A DNA stretch of 64,000 bases, taken from NCBI RefSeq assembly GCF_030519355.1, contig NZ_JAUMKC010000002.1:1-64000 (forward strand). Reading direction: 5' to 3'. The DNA comes from Mucilaginibacter sp. L3T2-6. GTDB taxonomy: Bacteria > Bacteroidota > Bacteroidia > Sphingobacteriales > Sphingobacteriaceae. Below are positions 11,288-31,010 of the stretch, one piece after another; within the stretch, counting starts at the first letter, position 1; every line of letters begins with the position of its first letter. The notes under the pieces were generated by a model. The model worked only from the letters and a program-made list of their open reading frames with translations, was not told the DNA's origin and did not search any database. A program made the position numbers and the translations under genes.

Positions 11288-12004
11288 TTAGCTTTCGGGG
11301 CTTCCTGTGGATTGTTCCCGGAGCCCGTCGGAATCTAAGTTGCCGGGCTTCATAAACGAATACCCGACAAAACACCCATGGTGTGAAAGCGATACCGGTA
11401 TCGGAAAATCTGCAGCGGCACTTAATAGAACCGGGCAGCCGTTATTATTTTTTTCAACCCTGAAATTATTACCACACTCTTTTTTTATCCGCTCCAATAA
11501 AAATGATCGTACTCCGGCAGATTGGGCCTCACTGTCATCACTGCCGATTTTTTTAACGCCCCATAAGAGGTTATTAAAATCATCGCCGGAATTTGCAACG
11601 GTGTGGATAAGTTCACTATACAGAACCGAACAAGCATGGAGGGTGTTATCCGCAAATTTTATGGTCGATTGGATATGGCTGATCTCCTTAAAACCTTTAC
11701 CCTCGTGAATAGGGTAGTTAAAAGGGGATAGCGAACAATTATGAGGCAAACGCAGGTTCACAACTTCAAATTTTACCGGGGTAAAAAGCAGGCGGGGTTC
11801 GCTGCGCTGCAGGAATTTGTAGGCCGACTCCTTTACCGACCATAACAACCATACGAAAATTTCAAAAGGGATTCGGGCTAAACTAAACTTGTTATACAGG
11901 GGGATTTCTGCTTCAGAAAGTATTTTGGAGTAAAATTTATATTGATTTGTGCGGGTAATGTCAATTGCAGCTAATGAAACAACATCATTACCCGCGCTTA
12001 TCAT
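11288..12004 (-). CDS. 4'-phosphopantetheinyl transferase superfamily protein
   Basis: A 238-residue Sfp-like enzyme that would attach the phosphopantetheine arm to the acyl carrier proteins of the surrounding pigment cluster. The core motifs are recognisable: a GNDVVSLAAIDITR opening (the Asp of the first metal site) and WLLWSVKESAYKFLQR (the W-x-x-K-E-[AS]-x-x-K signature). The C-terminal third (VSLSHHGCFVGYSF) resembles the SLSHS strand usually seen earlier in the fold. Its ATG overlaps the stop codon of the upstream ACP gene (ATGA), so the pair are translationally coupled. It is the last gene of the minus-strand unit starting at 14816. Confidence 0.85.
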   Translation of the reverse strand: MISAGNDVVSLAAIDITRTNQYKFYSKILSEAEIPLYNKFSLARIPFEIFVWLLWSVKESAYKFLQRSEPRLLFTPVKFEVVNLRLPHNCSLSPFNYPIHEGKGFKEISHIQSTIKFADNTLHACSVLYSELIHTVANSGDDFNNLLWGVKKIGSDDSEAQSAGVRSFLLERIKKECGNNFRVEKNNNGCPVLLSAAADFPIPVSLSHHGCFVGYSFMKPGNLDSDGLREQSTGSPES

Positions 12005-12258
12005 GCTTTTTCATTCATTTTTTCGCTGATCACGTCGATACAGGTACCAACGTTTACCATTTTATCAGCTGAATCATAGTCGATTTCTATATCGTATTTA
12101 GCTTCAGCATCTATAATAATATCAACCAAATTAGCTGAATTGATTTTTAAATCTTTGATGAGGTCGGTTTGTTCGTCAATATTGGCCAGCTGATCTTTGT
12201 TGACCGTATAAGGCGATATAACCTTTTTTAACTCATTCAGAATTTCCGTTCTTGTCAT
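12001..12258 (-). CDS. Acyl carrier protein
   Basis: An 85-residue acyl carrier protein carrying growing acyl chains on a phosphopantetheine arm. The acceptor Ser is most likely Ser41 in DLKINSANLVDIIID, where most fatty-acid ACPs have DSLD. The departure suggests a dedicated carrier rather than the housekeeping AcpP. A four-helix pattern is clear. It sits one base from the ketosynthase gene upstream and overlaps the phosphopantetheinyl transferase gene downstream, matching carrier, loading and extension functions in one unit. Confidence 0.9.
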   Translation of the reverse strand: MTRTEILNELKKVISPYTVNKDQLANIDEQTDLIKDLKINSANLVDIIIDAEAKYDIEIDYDSADKMVNVGTCIDVISEKMNEKA

Positions 12259-12259
12259 T

Positions 12260-13531
12260 TTAATTGTTGTATTTACTAAGTATCAGGCAAGAGTTAACGT
12301 CGCCGAAGCCAAAGTTCGCTTTAGCTACAATGTTAACTTCTTTTTTTAACATTTCTACAGGTAGTTTATCTAAACTTACCAGGTTTAATATTTCAGGATT
12401 CGGGTCATCCAGGTTTATATTAGGATGCACAAATCCGTGTTCAATCTGCAATATCGATGCCACAGTTTCGATAGAACCTGCTGCACTTAACGCATGGCCT
12501 ATCATTGACTTTAGCGAATTGGTTAGAGGAAAATCCCCGCCTTTACGGCCTAGCGCCTGGCACCAGTTCTGTATCTCCTGTTTATCGGCATTGGTGGCGG
12601 TTAAATGCCCGCTTATCAGATCTATCTCGTCGCCGGTGATACCCGCCATATTCATCGATTCTGTTACACAGCGGATTACCCCGGCTGAATTTGCTGCCGT
12701 CATGGTACCGCCCTGGCGTTGCCCGCCTGAATTGGTATTTCCGCCTAAAATTTCGGCATAAACACGTGCACCGCGTTCGAGGGCGAAATCCAGTTCCTCT
12801 AAAATCAAAGCGCCTGCACCAGAGCCTGGTACAAAACCGCCTGCAGTACTGCTCAGCGGCCTCGATGCCTTTTCCGGCTCATCATTGAACTTGCGCGACA
12901 ATACCCGCATAGAGTCGAACGAACCGTAAACGTAGGTATCCACATGTTCAGCGCTGCCAACCAGCATGCGTTGCGCATAACCATCTTTTATGGCTTCGTA
13001 GCCCATCAAAATGGCCTGCGTTCCCGTTGCGCATGCTGCGGAATTGGTGATGACCTTGTTGCCCAGGCCTAACCTCCCTGATATGTAAGAGGTAACCCCG
13101 CTGTTCATGGCCTGCTCAACCACGCGCGACCCAAGTTTCCTGGCTTCCTTGTTATCAACTTTTGCTATCACATTTTTCATGGCTTCGGTATCAGCAATGC
13201 TGTTTCCGAATACACAGCCGGTTTCCCAGCGGGGCTGATCTGTGTCGTAGGGCATGCCCGAATCAGCCCAGGCATCCAGCGCGGCGGCTAAACCGTAACC
13301 GATGTTGGTGCCTTTGAGCCCATGAAAGGTTACTTCCGAGATATAATTTTTCAGGCTTTCCCATTCGAAAGCAGGCATACCGGCAACCTGGCAACTGAAA
13401 TTCAGTTCGCGGTAATGCGGTATAAACCTGATGCCGGATATACCGTTTTGTATGGCATTCAAAAAAGCCGGGATGCCAATGCCGTTCGGCGCAACTACGC
13501 CCATCCCGGTAACTACAACCCGTTTTTTCAT
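12260..13531 (-). CDS. Beta-ketoacyl-ACP synthase (FabF/KAS II-like)
   Basis: A 423-residue condensing enzyme of the thiolase superfamily with a complete Cys-His-His triad: Cys167 (NSAACATGTQAI), His309 (ISGHLTATNADKQE) and His346 (MIGHALSAAGS). The first His lies in GHLTAT rather than the usual HGTAT. It extends an ACP-bound chain by two carbons with malonyl-ACP. Its start overlaps the stop of the dehydratase gene upstream (ATGA). Being grouped with an enoyl reductase and dehydratase, it probably supplies the saturated acyl precursors of the dialkylresorcinol part of the pigment; this role is inferred from position. Confidence 0.9.
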   Translation of the reverse strand: MKKRVVVTGMGVVAPNGIGIPAFLNAIQNGISGIRFIPHYRELNFSCQVAGMPAFEWESLKNYISEVTFHGLKGTNIGYGLAAALDAWADSGMPYDTDQPRWETGCVFGNSIADTEAMKNVIAKVDNKEARKLGSRVVEQAMNSGVTSYISGRLGLGNKVITNSAACATGTQAILMGYEAIKDGYAQRMLVGSAEHVDTYVYGSFDSMRVLSRKFNDEPEKASRPLSSTAGGFVPGSGAGALILEELDFALERGARVYAEILGGNTNSGGQRQGGTMTAANSAGVIRCVTESMNMAGITGDEIDLISGHLTATNADKQEIQNWCQALGRKGGDFPLTNSLKSMIGHALSAAGSIETVASILQIEHGFVHPNINLDDPNPEILNLVSLDKLPVEMLKKEVNIVAKANFGFGDVNSCLILSKYNN

Positions 13532-13989
13532 TTTTTTAGTTCGATATGTTTGATGATGCCCGAAAACATTCCCCGTGCTACTACCTCTTGTTCACTGTCA
13601 AGCATCTCGACATAACATTTCAGCTTGCCGAAACGAAAATATTGTTTTTTGGAAACCACTGTAACTTTCTGCCCCGGCAATACCATCTTAAAAAAAGAGA
13701 CCTCGGTTGAAGTAAGCAGCGGATACAAGTCAGTATCGTCATCAAAATTCAAGTCGCTTTCTTTCAGCATTAAAAATATTCCCATCACAACCAAGCCTAT
13801 TTGCGCCATAATTTCGGTGATAATAACGCCGGGTGTTACCGGGTTGCCTGCAAAATGATCTTCATAAAAAAACGAATCCTGTTTCAGGGTGTATTCCCCC
13901 CGCACCTCGTTTTCACTCAGCAACGAAATATTATCAACAAAACGAAAAGACGATTTATATGGTAAATGGTTTAATATGTGGTTGTTCAT
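13528..13989 (-). CDS. 3-hydroxyacyl-ACP dehydratase (FabZ-like hotdog)
   Basis: A 153-residue hotdog-fold protein that would remove water from 3-hydroxyacyl-ACP. The FabZ active-site region is visible as YEDHFAGNPVTPGVIITEIMA, in which His holds the catalytic place and Glu serves as the partner acid. It lies between an enoyl reductase gene (17 bases away) and a ketosynthase gene (overlapping), so one operon carries condensation, dehydration and reduction. The ketoreductase needed between them is not here but at 26471-27199. Confidence 0.85.
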   Translation of the reverse strand: MNNHILNHLPYKSSFRFVDNISLLSENEVRGEYTLKQDSFFYEDHFAGNPVTPGVIITEIMAQIGLVVMGIFLMLKESDLNFDDDTDLYPLLTSTEVSFFKMVLPGQKVTVVSKKQYFRFGKLKCYVEMLDSEQEVVARGMFSGIIKHIELKK

Positions 13990-14006
13990 GTATCTGCAAA
14001 AATAAG

Positions 14007-14816
14007 TTACCGGCAGTGCTCGCCGCCATCAACGTGTATTAATGCGCCGTTTATCCAAAAGGCGTCATTCGTACACAGCAGGTAGATAACACCGGCAACG
14101 TCATCTGGTTTTGTCATTCTTCCCAAAGGATTTCTTTTGGCGCCCATTTTCAATAACTTATCGCTTCCCGGGATCATTTTTAACGATGGCGTTTCAGTTA
14201 CGCCAGCTTGTATAATATTGGTCTTCAGGCCGTAAGGAGCAAATTCCACAGCCATATATTTGGCCAAGCTTTCAAGAGAGGATTTGGCAATGGAGACTGC
14301 CGCATAGCCATCCCAGTATTTGTGCGCACCCTCGCTGGTAAGGCCGATAATGCGGCTATCTGCACTTAATAACCCGGCATCCAGCAGTTCTCTCGTCCAA
14401 TCTAATAAGCTGGTCGACATAGCGTAGGTGGTAAGTTTTATGTCATCGACAGATAATGTGCTGTGGTCGTTCCCGTCATCCTGTACGATCAATGGCTTTA
14501 AATTCCCCCGGGCAATGCTGTGCAGCAGGAGTTTTACATTCCCTTTTCCGGAAATCGTGGCAAAATCCTTTATGAAAGACGCTCTCGATTCACCATCAAG
14601 TGCATTGATATTGTAAGTAAGAATTTGGGTTGATGTCGCTTCGGCAATTTGCGCAAGATTTTGTTTAAGGGCTTTCTCCGATGATTTGTTTTCGCGGTAG
14701 ATAACAGCTATGTTCATGCCGTGCGCGGCAAGCTTTTGCGCGGCCGCGTAGCCGAATCCGCTCGATCCGCCTAAAATAACCGCCCATAAGCCTTTAAATT
14801 GTAGATGTTTATCCAT
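14007..14816 (-). CDS. Enoyl-ACP reductase (SDR family, FabI-like)
   Basis: A 269-residue short-chain dehydrogenase-fold protein resembling NADH-dependent enoyl reductases. It has a glycine-rich nucleotide loop near residue 17 (GGSSGFGYAAAQKL), a Tyr-x(n)-Lys active site around YWDGYAAVSIAKSSLES, the FabI-like LKTNIIQAGVTETPS segment and the C-terminal VIYLLCTNDAFWINGALIHV. It is the first gene of the minus-strand unit, divergent from the DarA/DarB unit. An enoyl reductase is not needed to build a conjugated polyene but is needed for saturated alkyl chains, so I infer it serves the dialkylresorcinol branch. Confidence 0.85.
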   Translation of the reverse strand: MDKHLQFKGLWAVILGGSSGFGYAAAQKLAAHGMNIAVIYRENKSSEKALKQNLAQIAEATSTQILTYNINALDGESRASFIKDFATISGKGNVKLLLHSIARGNLKPLIVQDDGNDHSTLSVDDIKLTTYAMSTSLLDWTRELLDAGLLSADSRIIGLTSEGAHKYWDGYAAVSIAKSSLESLAKYMAVEFAPYGLKTNIIQAGVTETPSLKMIPGSDKLLKMGAKRNPLGRMTKPDDVAGVIYLLCTNDAFWINGALIHVDGGEHCR

Positions 14817-15020: not shown

Positions 15021-15035
15021 ATAGCTATGAAAATC

Positions 15036-15521
15036 ATGAATAAAGGGCGGATACTGCTCGTTTTCCTGTTAATTGCCGGCTTTGCTAAAGCTACCAGGGC
15101 GCAGCAGTTTGAAAAATCAATTTTTTACAAGGTGATGGACACCGGTGACCTGGCCGCCATTGATGCCCAGATTGATATTGTAAAAGCATCTTCACAAAAA
15201 TATAAAGATGGTTATGAAGGTGCTTTACTGATGCGCAAGGCAGATAAACTGGCTGTTCCTTTACAAAAACTTAAGTATTTTAAACAAGGCCGCATTAAGT
15301 TCGAAACAGCTTTAATGGCCGACCCCGATAACACCGAATATCATTTTTTACGGCTGGCTATACAGGAGCACGCCCCTAAAATCGTAAAATATCACAGCGA
15401 TATCGAAAAGGATAAAGCGATTGTGAAAAAGAATTTCAAAGACCAGCCGCAATCGGTGCAACATGCCATTTTAGACTATTGCAAAAACTCAAAAGTGCTG
15501 CACGCCGAAGATTTTCAATAG
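15036..15521 (+). CDS. Small secreted protein of the flexirubin cluster
   Basis: About 161 residues from the ATG at 15036, with a clear signal peptide (RILLVFLLIAGFAKATRAQQ) and cleavage expected after the Ala-Gln region. The mature part is helical and charged, with no motif I can name. It leads the plus-strand unit with DarA and DarB. Proteins of this size are found at this place in other Bacteroidetes pigment clusters as far as I recall, but no activity is known to me. In-frame alternatives are ATG 15027 and TTG 15018; the promoter just upstream makes the latter unlikely. Confidence 0.75.
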   Translation: MNKGRILLVFLLIAGFAKATRAQQFEKSIFYKVMDTGDLAAIDAQIDIVKASSQKYKDGYEGALLMRKADKLAVPLQKLKYFKQGRIKFETALMADPDNTEYHFLRLAIQEHAPKIVKYHSDIEKDKAIVKKNFKDQPQSVQHAILDYCKNSKVLHAEDFQ

Positions 15522-15553
15522 TGACGGCAGATATTTCTAACTTAGCGCCGCAA

Positions 15554-16456
15554 ATGAACAAAAAGGTACTGGCCATTTATTACACGCAATCAGGGCAGAT
15601 GGGTGAGATCGTTGACACGTTTACCTCGCCGCTGGTTGACGCCGGTTTCGATGTTGAAAAAGTGCTGATCAAGCTGGTCTCAGGCTATGAATTCCCCTGG
15701 ACGGGAAAGCGCTTTTTTTCCGTAATGCCTTCGTGTGTATTGGGCATTCCTGAACCCCTGCAGCCGCTGGAACTCAAAGAACAAAAATACGACCTGGTGA
15801 TCATCGGTTACCAGCCCTGGTTTCTATCGCCAAGTATTCCGGCAAATTCACTTTTGCACGACGAAGGTTTCAGGGATGTTATAAAAGACACGCCGGTGAT
15901 AACCATCAGTGCCGGGCGCAATATGTGGATTAACTCTTACGTTCGTGTACGTAATATGCTTAAAGAGGCGGGCGCGCGATTGGTTGGTAATGTGGCTTTG
16001 CTGGATAAACATCCAAACCCTATAAGTTTCGTCACCATTTTTTACTGGATGCTAACCGGTAAAAAAGACCGTTATTTAAATATATTCCCGAGGCCGGGCG
16101 TGTCGGAGCAGGATATTGCTGCGACCGTTGAATATGGCAGGACGGTGGCGCGGCACTTGCAAAACAATGATTGGGGCACGCTGCAGGATGAATTGATAGA
16201 ACAAAAAGCCGTCGAGATAAACTACAAGCTTATGTTTATAGAAGCCCGGGCCAAACCGATTTTTATGGCATGGGCAAAAATTATTGCTAAGCGTAAAAAC
16301 CGTACGCCGTGGCTGTCGGCGTTTAAATATTATCTTTTTGTCGCTTTATTTTTAGGTGCGCCGGTTTTACTAACGCTCGACGCAATATTTTTAAAACCTT
16401 TTTCGGCAAAACGCATTAATCGTAATAAATTAAAATACTTACAGGTAATCAATTAA
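15554..16456 (+). CDS. darA: DarA-like dialkylresorcinol-forming enzyme
   Basis: A 300-residue protein whose N-terminal half has a flavodoxin-like start (MNKKVLAIYYTQSGQMGEIV, with the phosphate-loop-like TQSGQ) and a hydrophobic C-terminal tail. It matches the DarA partner of DarB, which together condense two acyl units and form the resorcinol ring of dialkylresorcinols. The exact step of DarA (cyclisation, aromatisation or both) is a family-level statement. The frame is open from 15479, overlapping the previous gene, but the ATG at 15554 begins precisely at the conserved domain and leaves a normal 32-base gap. A hydrophobic segment near the C terminus (YYLFVALFLGAPVLLTLDAI) suggests membrane attachment. 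Confidence 0.85.
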   Translation: MNKKVLAIYYTQSGQMGEIVDTFTSPLVDAGFDVEKVLIKLVSGYEFPWTGKRFFSVMPSCVLGIPEPLQPLELKEQKYDLVIIGYQPWFLSPSIPANSLLHDEGFRDVIKDTPVITISAGRNMWINSYVRVRNMLKEAGARLVGNVALLDKHPNPISFVTIFYWMLTGKKDRYLNIFPRPGVSEQDIAATVEYGRTVARHLQNNDWGTLQDELIEQKAVEINYKLMFIEARAKPIFMAWAKIIAKRKNRTPWLSAFKYYLFVALFLGAPVLLTLDAIFLKPFSAKRINRNKLKYLQVIN

Positions 16457-16469: not shown

Positions 16470-17618
16470 ATGTCTGATACAAAAGTTTATATCAACCGCA
16501 CCTCTCATTACTTTCCAAATGAGCCCGTTTCGAACGACGAGATGGAGCAATATCTGGGGTACATTGATAATAAGCCATCGAAATCAAAAAAGATAGTTCT
16601 TCGCAACAATGGCATCACCAACAGGTACTATGCACTCAACAAAGAACACAAATCAACCCATACAAATGCCCAGATGACCGCGGAAGCCATCAGGGCGTTA
16701 TTCGACAATGATCCCGCTGAGCTGACAAGCGTGGAACTGCTGTCATGCGGTACTTCGTCACCTGACCAGATGATGCCGAGCCATGGCGTAATGACCCACG
16801 GCTGGATACCCGAGATAGGAGGGATAGAGGTAGTTTCGCCTGCCGGAGTTTGCTGTGCGGGCATGCATGCACTTAAGTTTGCTTACTTAGCCATTAAATC
16901 AGGCGAGGTGCATAAAGCTGTCGCAACCGGTTCAGAGCGTTTCTCGGGCCTTCTCGTGTCAGAGGTATTTGAAGAGGAAGCGCAAAAACTGAAGGAGATG
17001 GAAGAAAACCCTTACATCGCTTTCCAGAAAGACTTTTTGCGCTGGATGCTGAGTGATGGCGCGTCTGCTTTTTTAATGACCGACAAACCGAACGAAGATG
17101 GCCTGTCATTACGCGTTGAATGGATAGAAGGAGTAAGCTACGCCAACGAGATGGATACCTGCATGTACATGGGTGGCGAAAAACAGCCGGACGGCTCCCT
17201 GAAAGGCTTTATGGACTACACGCCGGAGGAGATAATGAACAAGTCGATCTTCAGTGTAAAGCAGGATATCAGCTTGCTGAGCGACAATATTGTTCCGCTC
17301 GGCGGGAAAAAAATTAAAGAGATATTCGAGAAGAAAGGCCTCGGCGTGAATGATATCGACTACTTTTTACCGCACATCAGCAGTAATTTCTTCAAGAGCA
17401 AGATTTATGATATGATAGAGATATATGGCGGCGGCATCCCTTACGAAAAATGGTTTATCAACCTGTACACCGTGGGCAACGTGGGCGCTGCATCTATCTA
17501 TCTGATGATTGACGAGCTGTTTAAAAGCGGCCGCCTGAAAAAGGGTGAAAAAATACTTTGTCTGGTGCCTGAGAGTGCCCGGTTTTCGTATATGTATGCC
17601 ATGCTTACGGTTGTTTAA
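16470..17618 (+). CDS. darB: DarB-like beta-ketoacyl-ACP synthase III
   Basis: A 382-residue KAS III-type ketosynthase of the dialkylresorcinol family, which joins a beta-ketoacyl-ACP and an enoyl-ACP to start ring formation. The nucleophile is most likely Cys129 (SPAGVCCAGMHALKF). The His (YFLPHISSNFFKSK) and Asn (YTVGNVGAASIYL) of the triad are in the expected order. It follows darA by 13 bases. The darA-darB pair is a hallmark of flexirubin and other dialkylresorcinol clusters and is the strongest anchor for the cluster assignment. Confidence 0.92.
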   Translation: MSDTKVYINRTSHYFPNEPVSNDEMEQYLGYIDNKPSKSKKIVLRNNGITNRYYALNKEHKSTHTNAQMTAEAIRALFDNDPAELTSVELLSCGTSSPDQMMPSHGVMTHGWIPEIGGIEVVSPAGVCCAGMHALKFAYLAIKSGEVHKAVATGSERFSGLLVSEVFEEEAQKLKEMEENPYIAFQKDFLRWMLSDGASAFLMTDKPNEDGLSLRVEWIEGVSYANEMDTCMYMGGEKQPDGSLKGFMDYTPEEIMNKSIFSVKQDISLLSDNIVPLGGKKIKEIFEKKGLGVNDIDYFLPHISSNFFKSKIYDMIEIYGGGIPYEKWFINLYTVGNVGAASIYLMIDELFKSGRLKKGEKILCLVPESARFSYMYAMLTVV

Positions 17619-17631: not shown

Positions 17632-18039
17632 ATGAAGAAGGACGAAGTGCCACAGGATTTGAGTTCGCTTGGTAAGATAACCAAAGAAGTTTGTTATGCC
17701 ACCGATAGCGACGGTAAATACACCACAACCTTAAGCAGCGGCTGGGATGTGAAAATCACCGCACTTGATACCGCATGGGACGATATTGCCAAACGTATAG
17801 CAGCGGCAAAGCAACAGGTGCTGGAAGGCAAGGCAAGCCCGGTTTTATTCTTCATGGAATACCGCCTGATGGACATTGGTATCTTAGCGGGGTACACCGG
17901 CTTTTGGCAGTGGCAGGTAAAAAGGCATTTAAAGCCAGAAGTTTTTAGAACGTTATCTAACAATAAACTACAAAAATACGCCGGGGCGTTTAATATCACA
18001 GTGGAAGACCTTAAAACCATGACTGTGCATGAGGATTGA
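17632..18039 (+). CDS. Conserved hypothetical protein of the pigment cluster
   Basis: A 135-residue soluble protein with no signal peptide or membrane helix and no motif I recognise. It has a helical C-terminal half (KQQVLEGKASPVLFFMEYR, later FWQWQVKRHLKP). It overlaps the next gene by 11 bases in a different frame, so it is tightly coupled to the BtrH-like protein and may act with it, for example as a partner or chaperone. That role is only an inference from coupling. Confidence 0.7.
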   Translation: MKKDEVPQDLSSLGKITKEVCYATDSDGKYTTTLSSGWDVKITALDTAWDDIAKRIAAAKQQVLEGKASPVLFFMEYRLMDIGILAGYTGFWQWQVKRHLKPEVFRTLSNNKLQKYAGAFNITVEDLKTMTVHED

Positions 18040-19042
18040 TTTTGAACATCGTCAGGCTGCACATTGCGAATCGGGCGTTACCAGGAACTTATTATATGCT
18101 GCATCAGGCGGCAAAATAACCGAGCCACTGGCCTTCGGCATTGGGGCCGGGCTGTTTTTTGCGTATATTCCTTTTATTAAAGTAAATAAAGGCCCGGCGA
18201 TAGCTTTTCGTACTTTTCCGGGGTATATATTTAAGCGTACGTGCAAGTCGCTGAATATACCGGTCATCAGCAAAAAATTCAGCTCAAAAGAAAAAGCACA
18301 GGCTTACCTGGATGCGAGACTGGAAGAGGGAACACCTGTGGGCTGCCAGGTAGGGGTATATTACCTGCCGTATTTCCCCCGGGAATACCGTTTCCATTTT
18401 AATGCCCACAACCTGGTAGTGTACGGCAGGGAAGATGATACTTATCTGGTAAGTGACCCCATCATGGAAGGCACGAACACCATGAGCAGCTACGAGTTGG
18501 AGCGGGTGCGTTTTGCTAAAGGCGCATTGGCCCCTAACGGGCACATCTATTATCCGAAACAAAACGTACAGATAACCGACGACCGGCTGCGTGAGGCTAT
18601 TAAAGGCGGCATCAAAAAGAATGTTTTTAACATGCTGTACATACCCGGCAGCTTCGCCGGGGTGAGCGGCATCAGGACTACCGGCGAAAAAATAAAAAAA
18701 TGGCGCGATAAGCTTGGGCTTGAAAAAGCCGGCCTGTACCTGGCGCAAATGGTGCGCATGCAGGAAGAGATCGGCACCGGTGGCGGCGGCTTTCGCTATA
18801 TTTACGCTGCATTTTTACAGGAAGCGGATGTTTACCTGCCGGGCAACCAATTAACCCGGATATCAGGTATATTTACTAAGGCCGGCGATATGTGGCGCAC
18901 GGCAGCAGTCCACGCGGCCGGCATTTATAAAGGCCGTATCGGCAGCCAGGACGATTTTAATGTGATGGGCGATTACCTGCTGGAAATTGCCGCACTGGAA
19001 AAAGCAGCTTTTGAAACATTAAAGAAAATTAAATGGCAGTAA
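18029..19042 (+). CDS. BtrH-like N-terminal domain protein, possible acyltransferase
   Basis: A 337-residue protein with a BtrH-type N-terminal domain, marked by the HCESGVTRNLLY motif in which Cys13 fits the nucleophile, followed by a DUF4872-like C-terminal region. BtrH of butirosin synthesis moves an acyl group from an ACP onto a sugar amine with a Cys-dependent mechanism. In this cluster the matching job would be moving the aryl-polyene acyl chain from ACP onto the dialkylresorcinol hydroxyl, giving the flexirubin ester. That is inference. The start overlaps the previous gene by 11 bases, and the stop overlaps the ABC ATPase gene by 10. Confidence 0.85.
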   Translation: MRIDFEHRQAAHCESGVTRNLLYAASGGKITEPLAFGIGAGLFFAYIPFIKVNKGPAIAFRTFPGYIFKRTCKSLNIPVISKKFSSKEKAQAYLDARLEEGTPVGCQVGVYYLPYFPREYRFHFNAHNLVVYGREDDTYLVSDPIMEGTNTMSSYELERVRFAKGALAPNGHIYYPKQNVQITDDRLREAIKGGIKKNVFNMLYIPGSFAGVSGIRTTGEKIKKWRDKLGLEKAGLYLAQMVRMQEEIGTGGGGFRYIYAAFLQEADVYLPGNQLTRISGIFTKAGDMWRTAAVHAAGIYKGRIGSQDDFNVMGDYLLEIAALEKAAFETLKKIKWQ

Positions 19043-21510: not shown

Positions 21511-21879
21511 TTAGACGTGGTTAAAGGTTCCCTGAAACTTAAAGCAAACCCTGTCTCCTTCGCTCAATTTGGCGGTTACAGCCATCGCGCCATCGCCAAG
21601 CTTATAGCTGATCTCCAAATAAACTGTATGGCTTGCCCCGGGTTCTATCATCCCGGCAAACTTTAAATTATCACCTTTTTTTAGCTGAACCTTATACCCG
21701 AGCGTATCAATTAATACATCTTTCACCACTTGCAGCATGCAGGCCCCCGGAATAACCGGTTGTCCCGGAAAATGTCCTTCGAAGATCTGGCTGTCAGCAT
21801 TTATAGATAATACGGCTTTGATAACGTTATCGGTATGTTCAATACTTTCAACCTTAAAAATTTGTTCGCTTGCTGTCAT
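21511..21879 (-). CDS. 3-hydroxyacyl-ACP dehydratase-like hotdog protein
   Basis: A 122-residue hotdog-fold protein with the FabA/FabZ-type active segment IFEGHFPGQPVIPGACMLQV, where the His is catalytic. It resembles the small dehydratases of aryl polyene clusters (ApeI type). It is the last gene of the minus-strand ketosynthase series, 10 bases after the Cys-less ketosynthase. It probably introduces a double bond in each extension cycle of the polyene. Confidence 0.85.
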   Translation of the reverse strand: MTASEQIFKVESIEHTDNVIKAVLSINADSQIFEGHFPGQPVIPGACMLQVVKDVLIDTLGYKVQLKKGDNLKFAGMIEPGASHTVYLEISYKLGDGAMAVTAKLSEGDRVCFKFQGTFNHV

Positions 21880-24155: not shown

Positions 24156-24769
24156 TAACCTAAAATCCTATCCAAATTATCTGCCGAAAATACTACAGAT
24201 TCTTTACTTTTTTTCTTTTCAACCAAAAACAAACCAGCTTTATAATCCTGCTCCAAAACATCCGCCCAGCCGCAAATACAGGCCTGCAGAATATCGTTAT
24301 CCAGCAAATAAATAACTTGCTGCGCTACAAAACCAGCATCAAATGTTTCTTGTATAAAAAAGGCATGTTCTCCTTTAAAATTATGCCTGATACAAATTTC
24401 GCCGATAACGATGTTTGGTAAGGTATATACGAAAACGGCCGGACTCGGGACTTCCTTAATTGTACCCGTATATTTAATATCATTGTCCAGGCTCGAATTG
24501 GCATTAGCTATTATCATGCCCAATCCCTCCGGCTGGTAGGCTGGCTTGTCCAAACTGCCTTCGAGCAATACTTCCGCAGTCAGCCAGCCCAGTTTGCTTA
24601 AATTATCCATTTTATAAAATTTAGGATAATTAAACTGAAAATGCTGATAAACCGACAACAAAAAGCCGGCAACATCCGCACCGGGATTCTCAAACAGCTT
24701 CACGCCGTTTTTAACCACAGTATTGTTGCTGATGACGCAGGAGGATGTTATGTGTTTTTCTGTTGTCAA
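24155..24769 (-). CDS. Half-length ketosynthase-like protein, no catalytic Cys
   Basis: A 204-residue protein that aligns by eye only with the N-terminal half of a beta-ketoacyl synthase: a SKLGWLTAEVLLEG helix, a GMIIANANSSLDND strand, and a NDILQACICGWADVL strand matching NDILDVVVAGGADAL of its neighbour. Where the neighbour has Cys160, this protein has Thr in IQETFDAGFVAQQ. The C-terminal half with both His is absent. It overlaps the next gene by one base and is not a recent frameshift remnant, since its C terminus ends cleanly in charged residues. The start is probably TTG at 24769, as no ATG is available before the upstream stop. Confidence 0.75.
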   Translation of the reverse strand: MTTEKHITSSCVISNNTVVKNGVKLFENPGADVAGFLLSVYQHFQFNYPKFYKMDNLSKLGWLTAEVLLEGSLDKPAYQPEGLGMIIANANSSLDNDIKYTGTIKEVPSPAVFVYTLPNIVIGEICIRHNFKGEHAFFIQETFDAGFVAQQVIYLLDNDILQACICGWADVLEQDYKAGLFLVEKKKSKESVVFSADNLDRILG

Positions 24770-24903: not shown

Positions 24904-26025
24904 TTATTTTACTACCACTATTGCCCCGTTACATCCCCCAAACCCCGAAGCCGTTTTTAAAAAATTAGTTGCTGCGATGGGCGTAAGCTCTGCACAAACA
25001 TTTACTTCACTGCTTACCCCCAATTCGTTAAACCCCGGTGTCGGTATCATCAATCCTTCTTTTAGCGACTGCATAGAAACCACCGCTTCAATCAACCCGG
25101 CTGCACCTAATGTATGCCCGTAATAACCTTTTAAGCTATTTAACGGTGTTGATTGCAAACCGGCCAGCCGGACGGCGTTGGCCTCCATCTCATCATTGTA
25201 TGGAGTTGCTGTACCATGGGCTGATATAAAATCAATATCTCCCGGAATTAATCCAGCATTCTGAATAGCTTTTTTTATCGCATACGATAACTCTTCCCCT
25301 GTACGTGAGGGCCCTGAAATATGGTTGGCATCGTTGCTTATTGAGCCCCCTTTAACCTTTAATTGCCCTTTAAATTTTTTATTGACCGACAAGACCACCG
25401 TTGCTGCGCCTTCACCTAAATTTAGGCCGTCGCGCGATGCTTCAAACGGCCTGCAAACTGACGGACTAAGCGCCTGGAAGGATTGAAAGCCCGATACAAC
25501 AAATCTTGAAATCACATCCGCCCCGCAAACAACCGCATTTTCATATTGCCCTGTATGCAACAAACGTGTGCCGGTAATTATCGCCATAACACCCGATATA
25601 CAAGCGTTGGATACAACTATGGGTGGAATCTGGAAACCGAAATAATCAGCGACTAATTTGGCAGATGTGGTCATTGATACCCGTTTGTACAAATCCGGGC
25701 CGTTCTTCCCGGTCTCCAGTAAACTTATATTTCCTTTTGTGCTGGAAATAATTAATGCGGTATTCTTAGTTATGTCAATATCGCTATTTTGTATCGCATC
25801 ACTTATAGATGCAATAAGCAGCTGCTCAAATTTGGTGTAAACGGTAAGGTTAAATTGCTTTTTATCCTCAAATAATGATGAATAGACTGGGGTTTCGGAT
25901 AGATTAACATCGTTATGCAATTTCACCGATGAAACTCCGTTTTTAAGCTGCAAAAAGTTCTCCTCTGTGGTTTTGCCAAGCGGTGAATATATATTATCTG
26001 CAACTATAAAAACATCTGACCTCAT
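24904..26025 (-). CDS. Beta-ketoacyl-ACP synthase (active)
   Basis: A 373-residue ketosynthase, counted from the ATG at 26025, with Cys142 (VVSNACISGVMAI), His270 (ISAHGTATPYND) and His304 (GYYGHTLGAAGL) all present. It is the second active elongating enzyme of this strand and resembles the ApeR-like ketosynthases that add a starter extension in aryl polyene systems. A TTG four codons upstream is possible but the ATG fits the conserved opening (DVFIVADNIYSPLG). It follows the dehydratase gene by 27 bases. Confidence 0.92.
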   Translation of the reverse strand: MRSDVFIVADNIYSPLGKTTEENFLQLKNGVSSVKLHNDVNLSETPVYSSLFEDKKQFNLTVYTKFEQLLIASISDAIQNSDIDITKNTALIISSTKGNISLLETGKNGPDLYKRVSMTTSAKLVADYFGFQIPPIVVSNACISGVMAIITGTRLLHTGQYENAVVCGADVISRFVVSGFQSFQALSPSVCRPFEASRDGLNLGEGAATVVLSVNKKFKGQLKVKGGSISNDANHISGPSRTGEELSYAIKKAIQNAGLIPGDIDFISAHGTATPYNDEMEANAVRLAGLQSTPLNSLKGYYGHTLGAAGLIEAVVSMQSLKEGLMIPTPGFNELGVSSEVNVCAELTPIAATNFLKTASGFGGCNGAIVVVK

Positions 26026-26052: not shown

Positions 26053-26469
26053 TTATTGCCCAACAAACACCTTCATCTCACACCTGGCGAGCAAAACGTC
26101 GTTCCGCCAAACCTGGCCTGTAAGCATGGTAACGTTAAAAACCTGGTTATCTATCGTTATTTCTGTAGTAATTTCATCCTCAGCAACCGGCAAACTGAAA
26201 ACCTCAAAATCCTTAATCGCACCGATATAGCCGGTCTCAACAGGTCGGTTTTCCTTTTGCGCCATATAGCCCGCGCGCAGGGCCGCAGTTTGCGCTATAT
26301 TTTCCATCAATCCCGCTTCCTGAAGTATGCCGTCCTTTACAAAAACATTATCCGGGCTTATTACAAAGCTGCTGCGTGTAACCGTCTCATCAGCATACAG
26401 CAATCTTCCCACCATTACAAAGGGTTGCTTTTGGGGGATTAACGGAATAATATCATCAATTGGCTGCAT
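26053..26469 (-). CDS. 3-hydroxyacyl-ACP dehydratase (ApeP-like hotdog)
   Basis: A 138-residue hotdog protein starting IDDIIPLIPQKQPFVMVGRL, the typical opening of FabZ/ApeP dehydratases. It lacks the usual His-Phe-Pro motif, with GLMENIAQTAALRAGY as the central helix. The ApeP-type proteins of aryl polyene clusters have the same form and pair with an ApeI-like dehydratase, here at 21511-21879. The frame runs further upstream into fabG, but the ATG at 26469 is only two bases past the fabG stop and begins at the conserved sequence, so it is preferred. Confidence 0.85.
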   Translation of the reverse strand: MQPIDDIIPLIPQKQPFVMVGRLLYADETVTRSSFVISPDNVFVKDGILQEAGLMENIAQTAALRAGYMAQKENRPVETGYIGAIKDFEVFSLPVAEDEITTEITIDNQVFNVTMLTGQVWRNDVLLARCEMKVFVGQ

Positions 26470-26470: not shown

Positions 26471-27199
26471 TCAGGTGTATAATCCGCCGTTAATGGATAG
26501 CACCTGTCCGGTAATGTAAGCAGCTTCTGGCGATGCAAAAAATGCAACTGCAGCAGCCACTTCCCCGGGCTGACCGAAACGCCGCGCAGGTATCAGCATT
26601 TTTAATTCTTTTTCATCAAGCCCTTCTGTCATATCGGTTTTAATAAAACCGGGTGCAAGTGCGTTAACCGTAATCCCTTGCCGGGCTATTTCCTGCGCTA
26701 ATGCCTTGGTAGCGCCGATGACGCCCGCCTTGGCGGCCGAATAATTTGTCTGACCCGCAAGGCCTTTTATGCCGGAAAGTGATACGATATTGATGATCCG
26801 GCCGTATTTGCGCGTCATCATGCCATTTAAAACCACGCGCGTAACATAAAAGAAACTATCCAGGTTGGTCTTTAACACATTGTCCCATTGCTCATCGGCC
26901 ATCCACGCCAGCAAGCTGTCGTCGCGGATGCCCGCATTGTTTACCAGCACCTCGATGTATTTATCCGGGTTGGCTTCTATCCAACGTTCCAAAGCTTGTT
27001 TTAGCGCTTCTTTGTCAGAAATATCAAACTGCAGCAGCTCGCCGGTACCGCCGTTTTCAACTATTTGCGCAAGCGTCTTACTGGCTTCTTCGGTATTACT
27101 TCTGTAGTTTATCAGCACGTAATAACCCTGTGCAGCAAGCTTCAGGCAGATTGCCCTGCCGATTCCCCTTGAGCCGCCGGTCACCAATGCGCATTTCAT
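26471..27199 (-). CDS. fabG: 3-oxoacyl-ACP reductase (FabG-like SDR)
   Basis: A 242-residue NADPH-dependent ketoreductase of the short-chain dehydrogenase family. Visible are the cofactor loop TGGSRGIGRAICLKL, the NNAG strand motif (VLVNNAGIRDD), the catalytic Ser in NIVSLSGIKG, the Tyr-x-x-x-Lys in NYSAAKAGVIG and the C-terminal YITGQVLSINGG. It is the only ketoreductase in the cluster, so it probably serves both chains. Its ATG overlaps the stop of the tyrosine ammonia-lyase gene (ATGA). Confidence 0.93.
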   Translation of the reverse strand: MKCALVTGGSRGIGRAICLKLAAQGYYVLINYRSNTEEASKTLAQIVENGGTGELLQFDISDKEALKQALERWIEANPDKYIEVLVNNAGIRDDSLLAWMADEQWDNVLKTNLDSFFYVTRVVLNGMMTRKYGRIINIVSLSGIKGLAGQTNYSAAKAGVIGATKALAQEIARQGITVNALAPGFIKTDMTEGLDEKELKMLIPARRFGQPGEVAAAVAFFASPEAAYITGQVLSINGGLYT

Positions 27200-28746
27200 T
27201 TGTTAAAAGTGGTTATATGGTCAGCACTTTCCAAAAAATCCTTGATGCGGGCCAAATCTTTATATTTAGGCGCATCTTCTACAAATTTCGGGAATATCTG
27301 TCTGACCTTGTCGTAAACCGAACGCGAAGCCGATGATAATTTGTCTTTGCATTCCAGGTAATCAATCGCTTGTAAAATGGTCATCAGGTGGATGCCCAAT
27401 ACCTCGAATGAGTTATCAATAACCCGTTTGGTCATCAGCGCTGCATTACAGCCCATGCTCACAATATCCTGGTTGTCGTTGTTGTTCGGAATGCTGTGGA
27501 CGTACATCGGGAACGACAATGTCTGGTTCTCAGCCGTGGTGGATGTTGCAGTAAACTGCATGCCCTGCATACCAAAGTTAAATCCAAGCACACCAAGGTT
27601 TACAAACGGCGGCAGTTTTTGGTTCAGCTTGGCATTCAGCAGGTAATTTAATTGCCGCTCGGCCAGCATAGAAACACGCGTCATAGCGATTTTTAGCTTA
27701 TCCATTTCCAGCGACACATAGTCGCCGTGGAAGTTACCGCCGTGAAAAATATTATGATTTTCGTGGTCGATAACCGGGTTATCATTAACCGAATTAAGTT
27801 CGTTAACCACCGTGTTTTCTACCTGTGCAATAGTGTCATAAATGGGCCCCAGTATCTGGGTTACGCAGCGCAGGGAGTAGTATTCCTGCACTTTGTCCTC
27901 AAATACTTCCTGGTCAAGGTTATCGGGATTATACAAGTGTTCTGAGCGGTCGCGAATCAGCTTGCTGTCCTTCAGGATATCGCGCATCATGGCGGCAACG
28001 GTATTCTGACCGCCGTGCCGTTTCACTACGTTCAGCTCGTGAGAGTAGTGGTCGTCATAAGCTTCTACTATCTCATTGATCATCGCGGAAAATAATACCG
28101 ACCAGTTCAGCAACTTCTTTGCCTGGATGATATTGATCATACCTATCCCGGTCATAGCCGAAGTTCCGTTCAAAATAGCCAGCCCTTCGCGGATATGGAT
28201 GGAAAGCGGCTTGATACCCAGTTTATTGAACACATCTATGGTTGGCTGTACTTCGCCCTGGTAAATTACTTCCCCTTCGCCAATTAGAACCAGTCCCAGG
28301 TGGGCTAATTGCACCAGGTCGCCGCTGGCGCCTACGCCGCCGTGTTCATATACGCAGGGGGCAACGTCTTTGTTGATCAGTTCCTTCAGCAGCTCAACCG
28401 TTTCAGCGTGAACACCGCTGTAGCCCTGCATAAAGCTGTTCAGGCGGGCAATCATCAGCGCTTTGGATAGTTGTGCTGTCATCAGCTTTCCGCTGCCGGA
28501 TGAATGGCTTCTGATCAGGTTATATTGCAGTTGCAGCACATTTTCCTCGTTTACCTTATATTGTGCCATCGGCCCGAAGCCCGTATTGATGCCATAAATA
28601 AGTTTATTGGAAGAAAATTGCTTAAGAAATTCAAAGTTGGTGTTGATTTTTTGCAAGGCCGCTTCGTCCAGTGCAACCTCTTTATTTTTAAATATCAGTT
28701 CAGAAAAATCATTCAGAGTAAGCGGACTATGTCCAACAGCTATCAT
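27196..28746 (-). CDS. tal: Aromatic amino acid ammonia-lyase, probable tyrosine ammonia-lyase
   Basis: A 516-residue MIO-dependent lyase that would deaminate L-tyrosine to 4-coumarate, the starter of the aryl polyene. The MIO group would form from Ala140-Ser141-Gly142 (GGVGASGDLVQLAHLG), with the active-site Tyr51 in LIYGINTGFGPM. The selectivity loop reads NLIRSHSSGSGK with Ser80-His81. This looks like histidine lyase at first sight, but it is the same loop I recall from the experimentally tyrosine-specific Flavobacterium johnsoniae enzyme, and long stretches elsewhere match that enzyme closely (TTAENQ, HSIPNNNDNQDIVSMG). No hut genes are near. It heads the minus-strand unit. Confidence 0.9.
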   Translation of the reverse strand: MIAVGHSPLTLNDFSELIFKNKEVALDEAALQKINTNFEFLKQFSSNKLIYGINTGFGPMAQYKVNEENVLQLQYNLIRSHSSGSGKLMTAQLSKALMIARLNSFMQGYSGVHAETVELLKELINKDVAPCVYEHGGVGASGDLVQLAHLGLVLIGEGEVIYQGEVQPTIDVFNKLGIKPLSIHIREGLAILNGTSAMTGIGMINIIQAKKLLNWSVLFSAMINEIVEAYDDHYSHELNVVKRHGGQNTVAAMMRDILKDSKLIRDRSEHLYNPDNLDQEVFEDKVQEYYSLRCVTQILGPIYDTIAQVENTVVNELNSVNDNPVIDHENHNIFHGGNFHGDYVSLEMDKLKIAMTRVSMLAERQLNYLLNAKLNQKLPPFVNLGVLGFNFGMQGMQFTATSTTAENQTLSFPMYVHSIPNNNDNQDIVSMGCNAALMTKRVIDNSFEVLGIHLMTILQAIDYLECKDKLSSASRSVYDKVRQIFPKFVEDAPKYKDLARIKDFLESADHITTFNK

Positions 28747-29342: not shown

Positions 29343-29483
29343 TGAAGGTACCACTTCAGCGGGTTCACGAGGAAGATCCGGTTTGATAAAAGCAACAAGG
29401 CGGGCTCTTCAAATTTACGAAATCTTTATGATCAAAGTGCTGACAACATTTTGACAGCAGTAAATAAAGCTCAAATCAATCAT

Positions 29484-29706
29484 GTCATTTTGACGAGGAA
29501 CGAGAAGAGCGTCGTTGGCCGGGATTTGCAATCCGTCGTTGGTCGGGATTTTCAATCCTCGACCCCGATTTTTGTCCGTCGTTGGTCGGGATTTGCAATC
29601 CTCGACCCCAATTTTTGTGGATTTGCAATCCCCGAAAATCAAATACTCGTGTACGAGGATTACAAATCCCCGGTATTTACAGCCCAGGATTATAAATCCG
29701 GACTAA
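29484..29706. repeat. GGATT-nnn-AATCC palindrome module, copy B with amplified front part
   Basis: Begins with GTCATTTTGACGAGGAACGAG (29484-29504), a common intergenic repeat form, and continues with three copies of the front segment GTCGTTGGTCGGGATTTGC at about 29510, 29535 and 29578. The last runs into a full module nearly identical to copy A up to 29706. Six GGATTnnnAATCC palindromes are present. The tandem increase of the front part only suggests recent slippage or transposition into a like element. Confidence 0.7.
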
Positions 29707-29714
29707 CGAATACT

Positions 29715-31010
29715 CTATCCTCTCTTATCAATAAACTTTATTGCCTTCCTGCTGGCCTCGTTAAATTGTATCTTCTGTATCTCTTCCGGACCGATATATT
29801 TTACATGCGGACTAACCCTTAGCTTAGCCTGCAAATAAGCCCTGATGCGGTGGTCGCATTCTTCAGTAAAGGCAGCCGGTACGAGGTAAAGCGAAACTTC
29901 ATCCATGCCGATATCGTTAGAAGATACCTCGATCACAAAATCCAGGATCTCCTCCATCTCATTCAATAAATCAAATAAGGCGGGCGGGTAAAGTGTCGTC
30001 CCCTTGAATTTTATCATCTGCTTTTTGCGCCCCATAACTGACGAAAGGCGCAGGCTGGTACGTCCGCAGGCGCAGGGCTCCTCAAAATAGCAGCAAATGT
30101 CGCCGGTTTTATAACGCAGTAAGGGCATGCCTTCAACACCCAGCGTGGTAATCGTCACTTCGCCTGGCGTACCCGGCTCAACTTGCTGGTTGTTTTCATC
30201 CAGCAACTCAACAATAACCAAATCGGGCTGGTAGTGTCCGCCGTTGCCTTCTCCGCATTCGGTAAATGCGGTCTGCATCTCGGTTGAGGCATAGGTGGAA
30301 TAAAGCTTAATGTCCCAGCTTTCAGTAATTTTTCTGCCAAGTATATTCAGCGAAAAATCGTTGTTGCGGATATTTTCGCCGATACAAATTGCTTTTTTTA
30401 CAGATGTGCTATTGATATCGATACCTGTGTCCTGCGCATATTTTATCAGTTTTAAAATAAAAGAGGGCACGGCAACTATGGCCGTAGGCTTTAAGCGCTG
30501 TATAGTTTCCCATTGAAGTGAGGGAACTCCGGGCCCCAGCCGGATGATGCCGGCGCCAATTTTACGGATGCCAAGATAATAGGCAATGCCGGCCATAAAT
30601 TGCCTGTCCAGCGTCAGCATCAATTGGTATGTATCCGCAGGTGAGCCATCGGCACATAAAAATGAACTGTATTCGTTATATGCCAACCGGTTAAGGTCGT
30701 TTTCAGTCAGGGCGATTGTAACCGGCCTGCCGAGCGTGCCTGATGTAGACGTATATTCAACTACTTTCTCCCGTGGTACGCACAAAAAATCATCATTCCG
30801 CTGCTGCAGGTCGTCCTTGATTGTTGGCGGGATAAGGGCCAGGTCGGCAACCGTTTTAATAGCGGTAATATCAATATCGTGCTTCTTGAAATGTTCCCGG
30901 TAAAAAGGGGAATGCTGATTAAGATAGGCTAACAGGTTATGCAGTTTTTGTTCCTGCATTAATGTTATTTCGTGTGGCTGCTGATGTATAATTTCGTTAG
31001 TAGCTGACAT
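29715..31010 (-). CDS. AMP-binding enzyme, phenylacetate-CoA ligase-like
   Basis: A 431-residue adenylate-forming enzyme of the PaaK type. The phosphate-binding loop is YTSTSGTLGRPVTIAL, and later motifs (YSTYASTEMQTAFTEC; LLRYKTGDIC) follow the family order. A Cys cluster (CCYFEEPCACGRT) matches the zinc site of PaaK relatives. In this cluster the likely job is activation of 4-coumarate and loading onto CoA or ACP to prime the polyene, as ApeH does in aryl polyene systems. It is separated from the tyrosine ammonia-lyase gene by 968 bases of repeats, so it has its own transcript. Confidence 0.88.
   Translation of the reverse strand: MSATNEIIHQQPHEITLMQEQKLHNLLAYLNQHSPFYREHFKKHDIDITAIKTVADLALIPPTIKDDLQQRNDDFLCVPREKVVEYTSTSGTLGRPVTIALTENDLNRLAYNEYSSFLCADGSPADTYQLMLTLDRQFMAGIAYYLGIRKIGAGIIRLGPGVPSLQWETIQRLKPTAIVAVPSFILKLIKYAQDTGIDINSTSVKKAICIGENIRNNDFSLNILGRKITESWDIKLYSTYASTEMQTAFTECGEGNGGHYQPDLVIVELLDENNQQVEPGTPGEVTITTLGVEGMPLLRYKTGDICCYFEEPCACGRTSLRLSSVMGRKKQMIKFKGTTLYPPALFDLLNEMEEILDFVIEVSSNDIGMDEVSLYLVPAAFTEECDHRIRAYLQAKLRVSPHVKYIGPEEIQKIQFNEASRKAIKFIDKRG

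Follow-up and report, generated by a model that had tools for sequence, protein, structure and literature searches.

Organization of the locus

The window, meaning the whole stretch of 64,000 nucleotides that was analysed, comes from a soil bacterium of the genus Mucilaginibacter and carries between positions 11288 and 31010 a flexirubin-type cluster, flexirubins being a class of yellow-orange pigments. This assignment was made from the open reading frames (ORFs) and their Pfam and NCBIfam matches. Six of the encoded proteins, FlxA, FlxY, FlxB, DarB, DarG and DarH, pass the curated NCBIfam cut-offs, which bears out the cluster type given in a preliminary description of the sequence. The components named there (tyrosine ammonia-lyase (TAL), ligase, DarA, DarB, acyl carrier proteins (ACP), dehydratases (DH), ketoreductase (KR), enoyl reductase (ER), phosphopantetheinyl transferase (PPTase), BtrH-like protein and ABC-2 exporter) are all intact ORFs. 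The list was incomplete, DarG (17632-18039) and a small protein (15036-15521) having been overlooked. Four ketosynthase (KS)-like proteins besides DarB do have a Pfam KS match, but a fifth KS-like protein, shortened to 204 aa (24155-24769), had been missed.

The features by which a flexirubin cluster is recognized were found as follows: the TAL FlxA and the ligase FlxY, above the cut-offs of NF053541 and NF053551; the DarA/DarB pair, DarB through NF053539 and DarA through homology and position only; DarG and DarH, above the cut-offs of NF053545 and NF053550; and a type II polyene machinery of a KS with a chain-length-factor-like partner, KR, DH and ACP. The common accessory set of MMPL exporter, LolA, acyltransferase and glycosyltransferase (GT), which is not taken as defining, was not found among the cluster ORFs. 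The left part of the cluster is a divergent, fatty acid synthase (FAS)-like set of five genes:

11288..12004, minus strand, 4'-phosphopantetheinyl transferase (PPTase; PF01648, E 2e-6)
12001..12258, minus strand, ACP1, acyl carrier protein (NCBIfam ACP models, below cut-off)
12260..13531, minus strand, KS1, FabF-type ketosynthase with catalytic Cys/His/His (Pfam/NCBIfam and alignment)
13528..13989, minus strand, DH1, FabA/FabZ-type dehydratase (PF07977)
14007..14816, minus strand, SDR-type enoyl-ACP reductase, ER (PF13561; best NCBIfam match FabL, below cut-off)

ACP1 has no Pfam match and its NCBIfam matches are all below cut-off; it is present in 10 of 14 genus loci with 70-88% identity, and a PPTase homologue occupies the same place in 9 of the 14. 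The dar operon follows on the opposite strand:

15036..15521, plus strand, small protein encoded ahead of darA; N terminus resembling a signal peptide (by eye), model all-helical and repeat-like
15554..16456, plus strand, DarA, dialkylresorcinol condensing/aromatising enzyme (position and homology; start revised from 15479)
16470..17618, plus strand, DarB, dialkylresorcinol KAS III-like cyclase (NF053539, 633 against a cut-off of 550)
17632..18039, plus strand, DarG, flexirubin biosynthesis protein (NF053545, 200 against 170)
18029..19042, plus strand, DarH, BtrH-related acyltransferase (NF053550, 447 against 300; PF14399, PF16169)
19033..19782, plus strand, ABC-2 exporter ATPase (PF00005; best NCBIfam match DrrA-like, below cut-off)
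19782..21062, plus strand, ABC-2 exporter permease (PF12698; start revised from 19647)
21070..21333, plus strand, ACP2 (PF00550)

DarA matches no model in Pfam or NCBIfam, and shares 59-83% identity with its counterparts in 14 genus loci and 36-43% with those in four same-family loci. The probable starts are 15554 for DarA, 19782 for the permease and 26469 for DH3 (below), as judged from the lengths in relatives; in alignments of DarA and the permease with six relatives every stop lies upstream of these starts. In the structure model of DarG the C-terminal part resembles a Cro/Xre-type helix-turn-helix (best E 0.007) and the N terminus is poorly modelled. The small protein is conserved in 77 of 80 related loci. 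Its model (mean pLDDT 90.6) retrieved only helical-repeat-type structures, TPR/14-3-3-like PDB entries with Z up to 9.4, a range common for helical arrangements; matches to the sterol transporter 7t1s (Z 7.9) and to TPAT 8g53 (Z 8.5) prove nothing about its role. The polyene genes and the right flank complete the region:

21511..21879, minus strand, DH2, FabA-like dehydratase subunit (PF07977)
21890..22954, minus strand, KS2, KS-like, chain-length-factor-like, lacking the active-site Cys (PF13723)
22956..24155, minus strand, KS3, catalytic ketosynthase (Pfam and alignment of active-site residues)
24155..24769, minus strand, KSlike, truncated KS-like protein of 204 aa (alignment only; Gln at the Cys position)
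24904..26025, minus strand, KS4, catalytic ketosynthase (Pfam and alignment)
26053..26469, minus strand, DH3, dehydratase-like subunit (weak FabZ match; start revised from 26547)
26471..27199, minus strand, FlxB, ketoreductase (NF053542, 395 against a cut-off of 340)
27196..28746, minus strand, FlxA, tyrosine ammonia-lyase with ASG (MIO) motif (NF053541, 867 against 700)
29715..31010, minus strand, FlxY, 4-coumarate ligase (NF053551, 672 against 520)
31028..32137, plus strand, BD-FAE-type alpha/beta hydrolase (PF20434), a possible extra cluster member

In the alignment KS1, KS3 and KS4 retain the Cys and two His residues, and the proteins at 21890 and of 204 aa have no such Cys. KS3 is likely the elongation partner of KS2, and KSlike, which has no Pfam match and recurs in 9 of the 14 genus loci, is likely the partner of KS4; the latter would carry out the starter-unit condensation. 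Both flanks had been called unrelated, which holds for the most part, but a homologue of the BD-FAE hydrolase adjoins the ligase, or lies one gene off, in 5 of the 14 genus loci.

Comparison with full clusters and known systems

Full clusters occur in two genomes of the same family, G102 and G137. They share with the window TAL, KR, DarA, DarB, DarG, DarH, the ABC pair, the ligase, KS4/KSlike, KS3/KS2, ACP2, DH2 and the small helical protein, and one dehydratase of theirs is 34% identical to DH3. In addition the full clusters contain a halogenase, another KS1 and ACP, LpxL, a thioesterase, a deacetylase-like protein, a CrtI-like oxidase, LolA, a lipoprotein-like protein, GT2-DUF2062 and MMPL-PlsC. 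The MMPL-PlsC, LolA, lipoprotein-like, LpxL, GT2 and deacetylase-like genes are hereafter called the accessory module. The KS1 of the window is only 31% identical to that of the full clusters, in which the PPTase-ACP1-DH1-type set has no match. Because the compact cluster does not have the KS1, ACP and thioesterase of the full clusters, its polyene could be shorter, changed or unreleased.

The flexirubin clusters of Chitinophaga pinensis and Flavobacterium johnsoniae, as far as they are described in PMC3992019, have FlxA, FlxY, FlxB, several KS, dehydratases and DarA/DarB in common with the window. In C. pinensis TAL and ligase activity are reported for FlxA and FlxY, and DarA/DarB form dialkylresorcinol (PMC3992019). 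The flx locus of that organism includes flxP-flxU (deacetylase, acyltransferase, LolA, glycosyltransferase, exporter) and its dar genes form a separate locus (PMC3992019), whereas the compact cluster has no equivalents of flxP-flxU and holds dar and polyene genes together. The same account leaves the transfer of flexirubin to the outer membrane to export 'by yet unknown mechanisms'. The arcuflavin dar operon of Azoarcus sp. BH72 likewise comprises a BtrH-like protein, ABC ATPase and permease, and an ACP, but its polyene is of the xanthomonadin type, derived from a chorismate-utilising enzyme, and exporter, LolA and acyltransferase are encoded in arc loci at other places in the genome (as described in PMC3949708). 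The ape cluster of E. coli CFT073 follows the same KS/CLF, KR, DH and ACP polyene logic; as presented in PMC8253772 it has no resorcinol half and possesses the anchoring and transport set ApeL, ApeM, ApeN, ApeD and ApeJ. In an apeM transporter mutant the aryl polyene was undetectable by HPLC and the extract was still faintly yellow (PMC8253772).

These comparisons bear on the proposal of the preliminary description that the cluster is a reduced variant, in which transport and esterification, elsewhere the work of MMPL, LolA and an acyltransferase, passed to the ABC exporter and the BtrH-like protein. The export and anchoring set is indeed absent; within the compact cluster no transporter other than the ABC pair and no BtrH/LpxL-like acyltransferase other than DarH was recognised, and the dN/dS of these genes is low in relatives. 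But the same DarG-DarH-ABC-ABC run sits inside the full clusters next to LolA, GT, MMPL and LpxL, and Azoarcus has both gene sets (PMC3949708), so that these genes did not arrive as substitutes. Nothing has thus been swapped in, the accessory module being either absent or carried separately, and a takeover is unlikely. An esterifying role of the BtrH-like protein agrees with the NCBIfam name of DarH, an acyltransferase; its part as a substitute falls away. In the same-family genome G093, DarA, DarB, DarG and DarH are present and the ABC pair is unmatched within 60 kb, so the role of the ABC pair is not universal there. G093 and G199 have split or partial clusters, and the 60 kb taken from each matched neither MMPL nor LolA.

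Search of the genome for accessory genes

LolA, LpxL-type acyltransferase, MMPL and GT genes are absent from the cluster ORFs by Pfam and by BLAST against full-cluster proteins, as the preliminary description had stated. The second-locus check that it proposed was run for MMPL, LolA and LpxL in the window genome (99.99% complete). The MMPL-PlsC fusion of the full clusters had no match genome-wide at 1e-8, with a profile built from two sequences and 4 of 7 candidates scored at first look (2 of 7 in the phylum count below), so that a divergent copy may have been missed. An LpxL-type acyltransferase had no match genome-wide at 1e-5, and the single LolA match (PF03548) adjoins FtsK. LolA_3 (PF19574), which matched neither the window genome nor any control genome, was uninformative and PF03548 was used instead. 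The ApeD/J/L/M/N-like anchoring and transport genes of an ape-type aryl polyene lipid cluster were likewise not found among the cluster ORFs, and the MMPL and LpxL markers of such a cluster are unmatched in the window genome.

Generic transporters remain in the window genome. PF03176 gave 14 matches, several of which are two halves of one RND-size protein. That unlinked generic genes, namely a 772 aa MMPL protein (contig C12), housekeeping acyltransferases and the LolA next to FtsK, supply the absent functions would draw on these matches and on the single LolA. The size of the MMPL protein is that of generic MMPL proteins of relatives (773-818 aa); it was rejected as the missing exporter, since its neighbours are housekeeping or efflux-type genes (by eye) and it is unmatched to the full-cluster profile at 1e-8. 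With LolA adjoining FtsK and LpxL unmatched, we rate such a supply as improbable.

Distribution and selection

In 66 of the 79 DarB-positive Mucilaginibacter genomes there was no match to either the MMPL-PlsC or the LpxL type (49 of 60 at a completeness of 90% or more and a contamination of 5% or less). TAL is present in 63 of these 66, in 45 of them within 20 kb of DarB. M. phenanthrenivorans, M. gilvus, M. corticis, M. polytrichastri and M. frigoritolerans are among the species with a compact cluster and no MMPL-PlsC match, and M. flavus and M. dorajii are among those with MMPL. At 1e-8 MMPL matches occurred in 41 of 149 genomes, and only the 23 with E <1e-80 were counted, the others (E 1e-11 to 1e-8) being generic MMPL-size or PlsC-size frames. 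LpxL accompanies MMPL in 22 of the 23 and never occurs without it. Within the genus, MMPL occurs independently of DarB (p = 0.82), in contrast to the phylum sample outside the genus (count threshold 1e-30), where the two are coupled (29/3 vs 3/354, p = 5e-37). MMPL is kept there in 29 of 32 DarB-positive genomes, which suggests that the module as a rule contributes to the same pathway. Among the 39 of 201 family genomes with DarH-type matches is a group at about 30% identity, which was not treated as DarH.

Three relatives (G254, G264, G314) combine a compact dar cluster with a second cluster of the aryl-polyene-lipid type on a separate contig. This second cluster encodes LolA, LpxL, MMPL and a GT as well as KS3/KS2 copies of its own, and the stretch taken around it shows none of the dar, TAL, ligase, KS4 and KSlike genes. 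In G294, whose genome has no DarB, TAL and ligase form part of an APE-type cluster. The dar tree requires at least six changes of MMPL state; it was built by a quick method with SH-aLRT support only, and its 44 rows were drawn from the 80 named loci (29), the genus (12 genomes) and the four other same-family genomes (2), besides the window itself.

A decaying or silent remnant, yielding free dialkylresorcinol only or nothing, could be suspected from the TAL block lying far from dar in G162, G183 and G131 (stretches taken round the relocated TAL only) and from the 4 of 79 DarB-positive genomes with no TAL match, three of which are less than 90% complete. Against this, every ORF of the window is intact, the relocated polyene genes persist, and 38 of the 80 named loci keep the dar run complete, with KS3 and KSlike next on the opposite strand, many of the others being cut off by contig ends. 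Moreover, dN/dS in three pairs of MMPL-negative relatives is below 0.3 for each measurable gene, dar and polyene genes alike. DH2 was not found in one pair, in one orf15 had saturated dS and TAL was out of reach, and in one TAL covered only 77 codons; the ratios of the pair L081/L082 are rough because dS exceeds 1 for most genes. A remnant of either kind is accordingly unlikely.

Proposed pathway

With modest confidence we regard the locus as a compact yet complete Mucilaginibacter flexirubin cluster, in which the accessory module was not replaced but is part of a separable aryl-polyene-lipid branch missing from this lineage. We infer the order of steps, the supply of precursors by the FAS-like set, ester formation by DarH, export of the pigment by the ABC pair and its production as follows. 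FlxA would deaminate tyrosine to 4-coumarate, which FlxY would activate; KS4/KSlike and KS3/KS2, with FlxB and DH2/DH3, would build the aryl-polyenoyl-ACP. The PPTase-ACP1-KS1-DH1-ER set may provide fatty acyl precursors, two of which would be condensed and aromatised by DarB and DarA to the dialkylresorcinol. DarH would then link polyene and resorcinol halves as an ester, and the ABC-2 pair would carry it across the inner membrane. Against this reading stand the retention of MMPL in 29 of 32 DarB-positive genomes outside the genus, the lack of an ABC-pair match in G093, the apeM mutant of E. coli, the absence of the KS1, ACP and thioesterase of full clusters, and the generic transporters left in the window genome.

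That most relatives bearing the pigment genes are without the membrane-transport genes suggests that the latter may serve a different product. Tentatively, the MMPL-PlsC/LolA/LpxL/GT module would stand outside the flexirubin pathway and make and move a second product, an aryl-polyene lipid, flexirubin needing only the polyene core, dar, DarH and ABC-2, possibly aided in the periplasm by the conserved small helical protein. It is conceivable, if short of probable, that in merged clusters this lipid shares the polyene core with flexirubin. The occurrence of the flexirubin and MMPL modules together, apart or singly in Mucilaginibacter might, with less than even confidence, be read as their natural separation. 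The best reading is that dar, the polyene core and the ABC pair can suffice for flexirubin.

Implications

In the open-licence literature we found no report of a flexirubin core and dar without the usual exporter and acyltransferase in Mucilaginibacter, and no flexirubin (KOH) test for a member of the genus with the compact cluster. For cluster callers these loci are a warning that MMPL/LolA should not serve as a flexirubin marker. Dozens of Mucilaginibacter genomes, in which the biosynthetic core and dar are kept and the usual exporter and acyltransferase are unmatched, constitute a natural experiment, which points to genes for deletion and predicts two products in strains with full clusters.

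Organization of the gene cluster

The window covers the initial 64 kb of contig C22, in a genome (G000) of 5.7 Mb and 42 contigs. Its flexirubin-type cluster spans 11288-31010 and consists of three gene blocks.

Gene blocks of the cluster at 11288-31010
Block 1, minus strand: PPTase-ACP1-KS1-DH1-ER
Block 2, plus strand: small protein with signal-like N terminus, DarA, DarB, DarG, DarH, ABC ATPase, ABC permease, ACP2
Block 3, minus strand: DH2-KS2-KS3-KSlike-KS4-DH3-KR-TAL, then ligase

All components listed in the preliminary description, which recognized a compact flexirubin-type cluster, were recovered, and six proteins of the cluster satisfy curated NCBIfam models: TAL (FlxA), ligase (FlxY), KR (FlxB), DarB, DarG and DarH. 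DarA matched no model and was named from position and homology. Among the 80 named related loci, the DarB proteins closest to that of the window (92-93%) are from Mucilaginibacter. The catalytic Cys and two His are retained in KS1, KS3 and KS4; KS2 and the truncated KSlike protein (204 aa) are without the Cys, like chain-length factors. The FAS-like set is represented by its KS1 and ER in 58/80 named loci, Mucilaginibacter and others alike, and no gene of this set was seen at L148, L156 and L157, which adjoin MMPL or GT genes. By eye, an AcpS-like protein of 122-126 aa was found beside the ligase or MMPL cluster in loci of eight relatives (G014, G089, G174, G192, G254, G264, G294 and G314); the window cluster, whose PPTase is of the other type, showed no such protein.

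The small protein upstream of darA (15036-15521, plus strand) has a homologue in 77/80 loci, with 36-40% identity over the aligned part to those of full clusters. It has a signal-like N terminus and a predicted helical-repeat model and is a candidate periplasmic partner. DarG (17632-18039, plus strand) bears no more specific name than biosynthesis protein; its modelled C-terminal part resembles Cro/Xre HTH domains, and it is possibly an operon regulator or a binding scaffold.

Near the cluster, a protein at 33561-34556 (minus strand) has a signal-like N-terminal segment and, at its C terminus, a Hint domain (hedgehog/intein, PF01079). A BD-FAE hydrolase gene is followed by that of an 86 aa proline-rich peptide with a signal-like N terminus (32203-32463, plus strand); similar peptides also lie downstream of this hydrolase in G014 and G111.

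Absence of the accessory set

G102 and G137, which belong to the same family as G000, have full clusters containing TAL, KR, the dar genes, the ABC pair and the ligase. They additionally encode a halogenase, another KS1 with ACP, an LpxL-type acyltransferase, a thioesterase, a polysaccharide-deacetylase-like protein, LolA, a lipoprotein-like protein (by eye), GT2-DUF2062, a CrtI-like oxidase and an MMPL-PlsC fusion of 1,215-1,221 aa (Pfam labels from one representative of each protein, taken from G137 or G089). None of these accessory genes was detected in the window cluster. MMPL-PlsC, LpxL-type and LolA genes were also sought at a second locus of G000: profiles of MMPL-PlsC (1e-8) and LpxL type (1e-5) gave no match in the genome, and its sole LolA adjoins FtsK. 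The 14 MMPL-family matches include several that are paired halves of one RND-size protein, and the highest score belongs to a protein of 772 aa whose gene neighbourhood is unrelated.

The proposed reduced variant is confirmed and extends to a lineage trait. DarB occurs in 79/149 genomes of the genus and the MMPL-PlsC fusion in 23 (E < 1e-80), which include all 22 carriers of the LpxL type; 66/79 DarB-positive genomes contain neither marker. TAL (at least 68% identity) is present in 63 of these 66, in 45 at no more than 20 kb from DarB. Among DarB-positive genomes with completeness of 90% or more and contamination of 5% or less, MMPL is absent from 49/60. The fusion is also absent from 19 of the 29 genomes checked among the named loci (13/19 labelled Mucilaginibacter, and 6/10 others, mostly Chitinophagaceae).

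A phylum sample of 395 genomes holds DarB in 34 and MMPL (threshold 1e-30) in 32. Outside the genus both occur in 29, DarB only in three (in two of them merely about 40% identical) and MMPL only in three, a tight coupling (Fisher p = 5e-37, kinship uncorrected); within the genus the two are uncoupled (p = 0.82, kinship uncorrected). A phylogeny based on six proteins of the dar operon, covering 44 genomes, requires at least 6 changes of MMPL state, below all 500 label shuffles (mean 10.7), yet more than one.

A separable MMPL module

G254, G264 and G314 each have two clusters on different contigs. One is a compact dar-TAL cluster; the second contains KR, full-type KS1, LpxL, thioesterase, halogenase, ACP, KS3/KS2, a deacetylase-like protein, LolA, a lipoprotein-like protein, GT2, MMPL and a CrtI-like oxidase. 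In the 35-40 kb examined, this second cluster showed none of the dar, TAL, ligase, KS4 and KSlike genes. In G294 an MMPL-type cluster contains TAL, ligase, KS4 and KSlike, and DarB is absent from the genome; in G089 most such genes sit together with the dar genes in one cluster, and GT and MMPL lie on a separate contig. The MMPL module therefore goes together with LpxL and the other KS1 rather than with dar. The second clusters of G254, G264 and G314 contain no TAL, ligase or KS4/KSlike and may therefore draw their starter units from the compact cluster; by inference, KS4/KSlike would carry out starter condensation. For the ape cluster of E. coli, one report proposes that the equivalent genes fix the polyene on a lipid anchor and transport it outward; in a transporter mutant the product was undetectable by HPLC, with a faint yellow remaining (PMC8253772).

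ABC exporter and DarH

The preliminary description had the ABC exporter and the BtrH-like protein (DarH) take over transport and esterification. Both coexist with MMPL in the full clusters of G102 and G137, and ABC and BtrH-like genes are also described in the dar operon of Azoarcus (PMC3949708), so that no substitution took place and a role as replacements is not supported; the ABC pair and DarH are ordinary members of the dar operon. The complete run DarA-B-G-H-ABC-ABC-ACP2 occurs in 65/80 named loci, and wherever 4 kb or more follow DarH in a named locus, the ABC pair is present. ABC-2 transporters are listed for a Dyadobacter flexirubin cluster, too (PMC9606717). Counting against a universal ABC role, G093 of the same family (L069-L071, cluster apparently split) has DarA, DarB, DarG and DarH with no ABC pair, and no MMPL or LolA match, within 60 kb. 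At most, DarH and the ABC pair would be sufficient by themselves. The dar operons of L089, L092 and L093 had no polyene gene matched in the 8-10 kb downstream.

Signs against decay

Three pairs of MMPL-negative relatives were compared: L081/L082 (synonymous change near saturation), L079/L080 and L086/L124, with L080 and L124 assigned to genomes G270 and G274 from the DarB position. dN/dS is below 0.3 in every measurable gene; dar, KS and reductase genes stay below 0.13, the sole exception being DarG in one pair (0.14). In G162, G183 and G131 the polyene genes are relocated yet retained. Both observations argue against decay of the compact cluster. The variant renders the unsolved export step of flexirubins testable.
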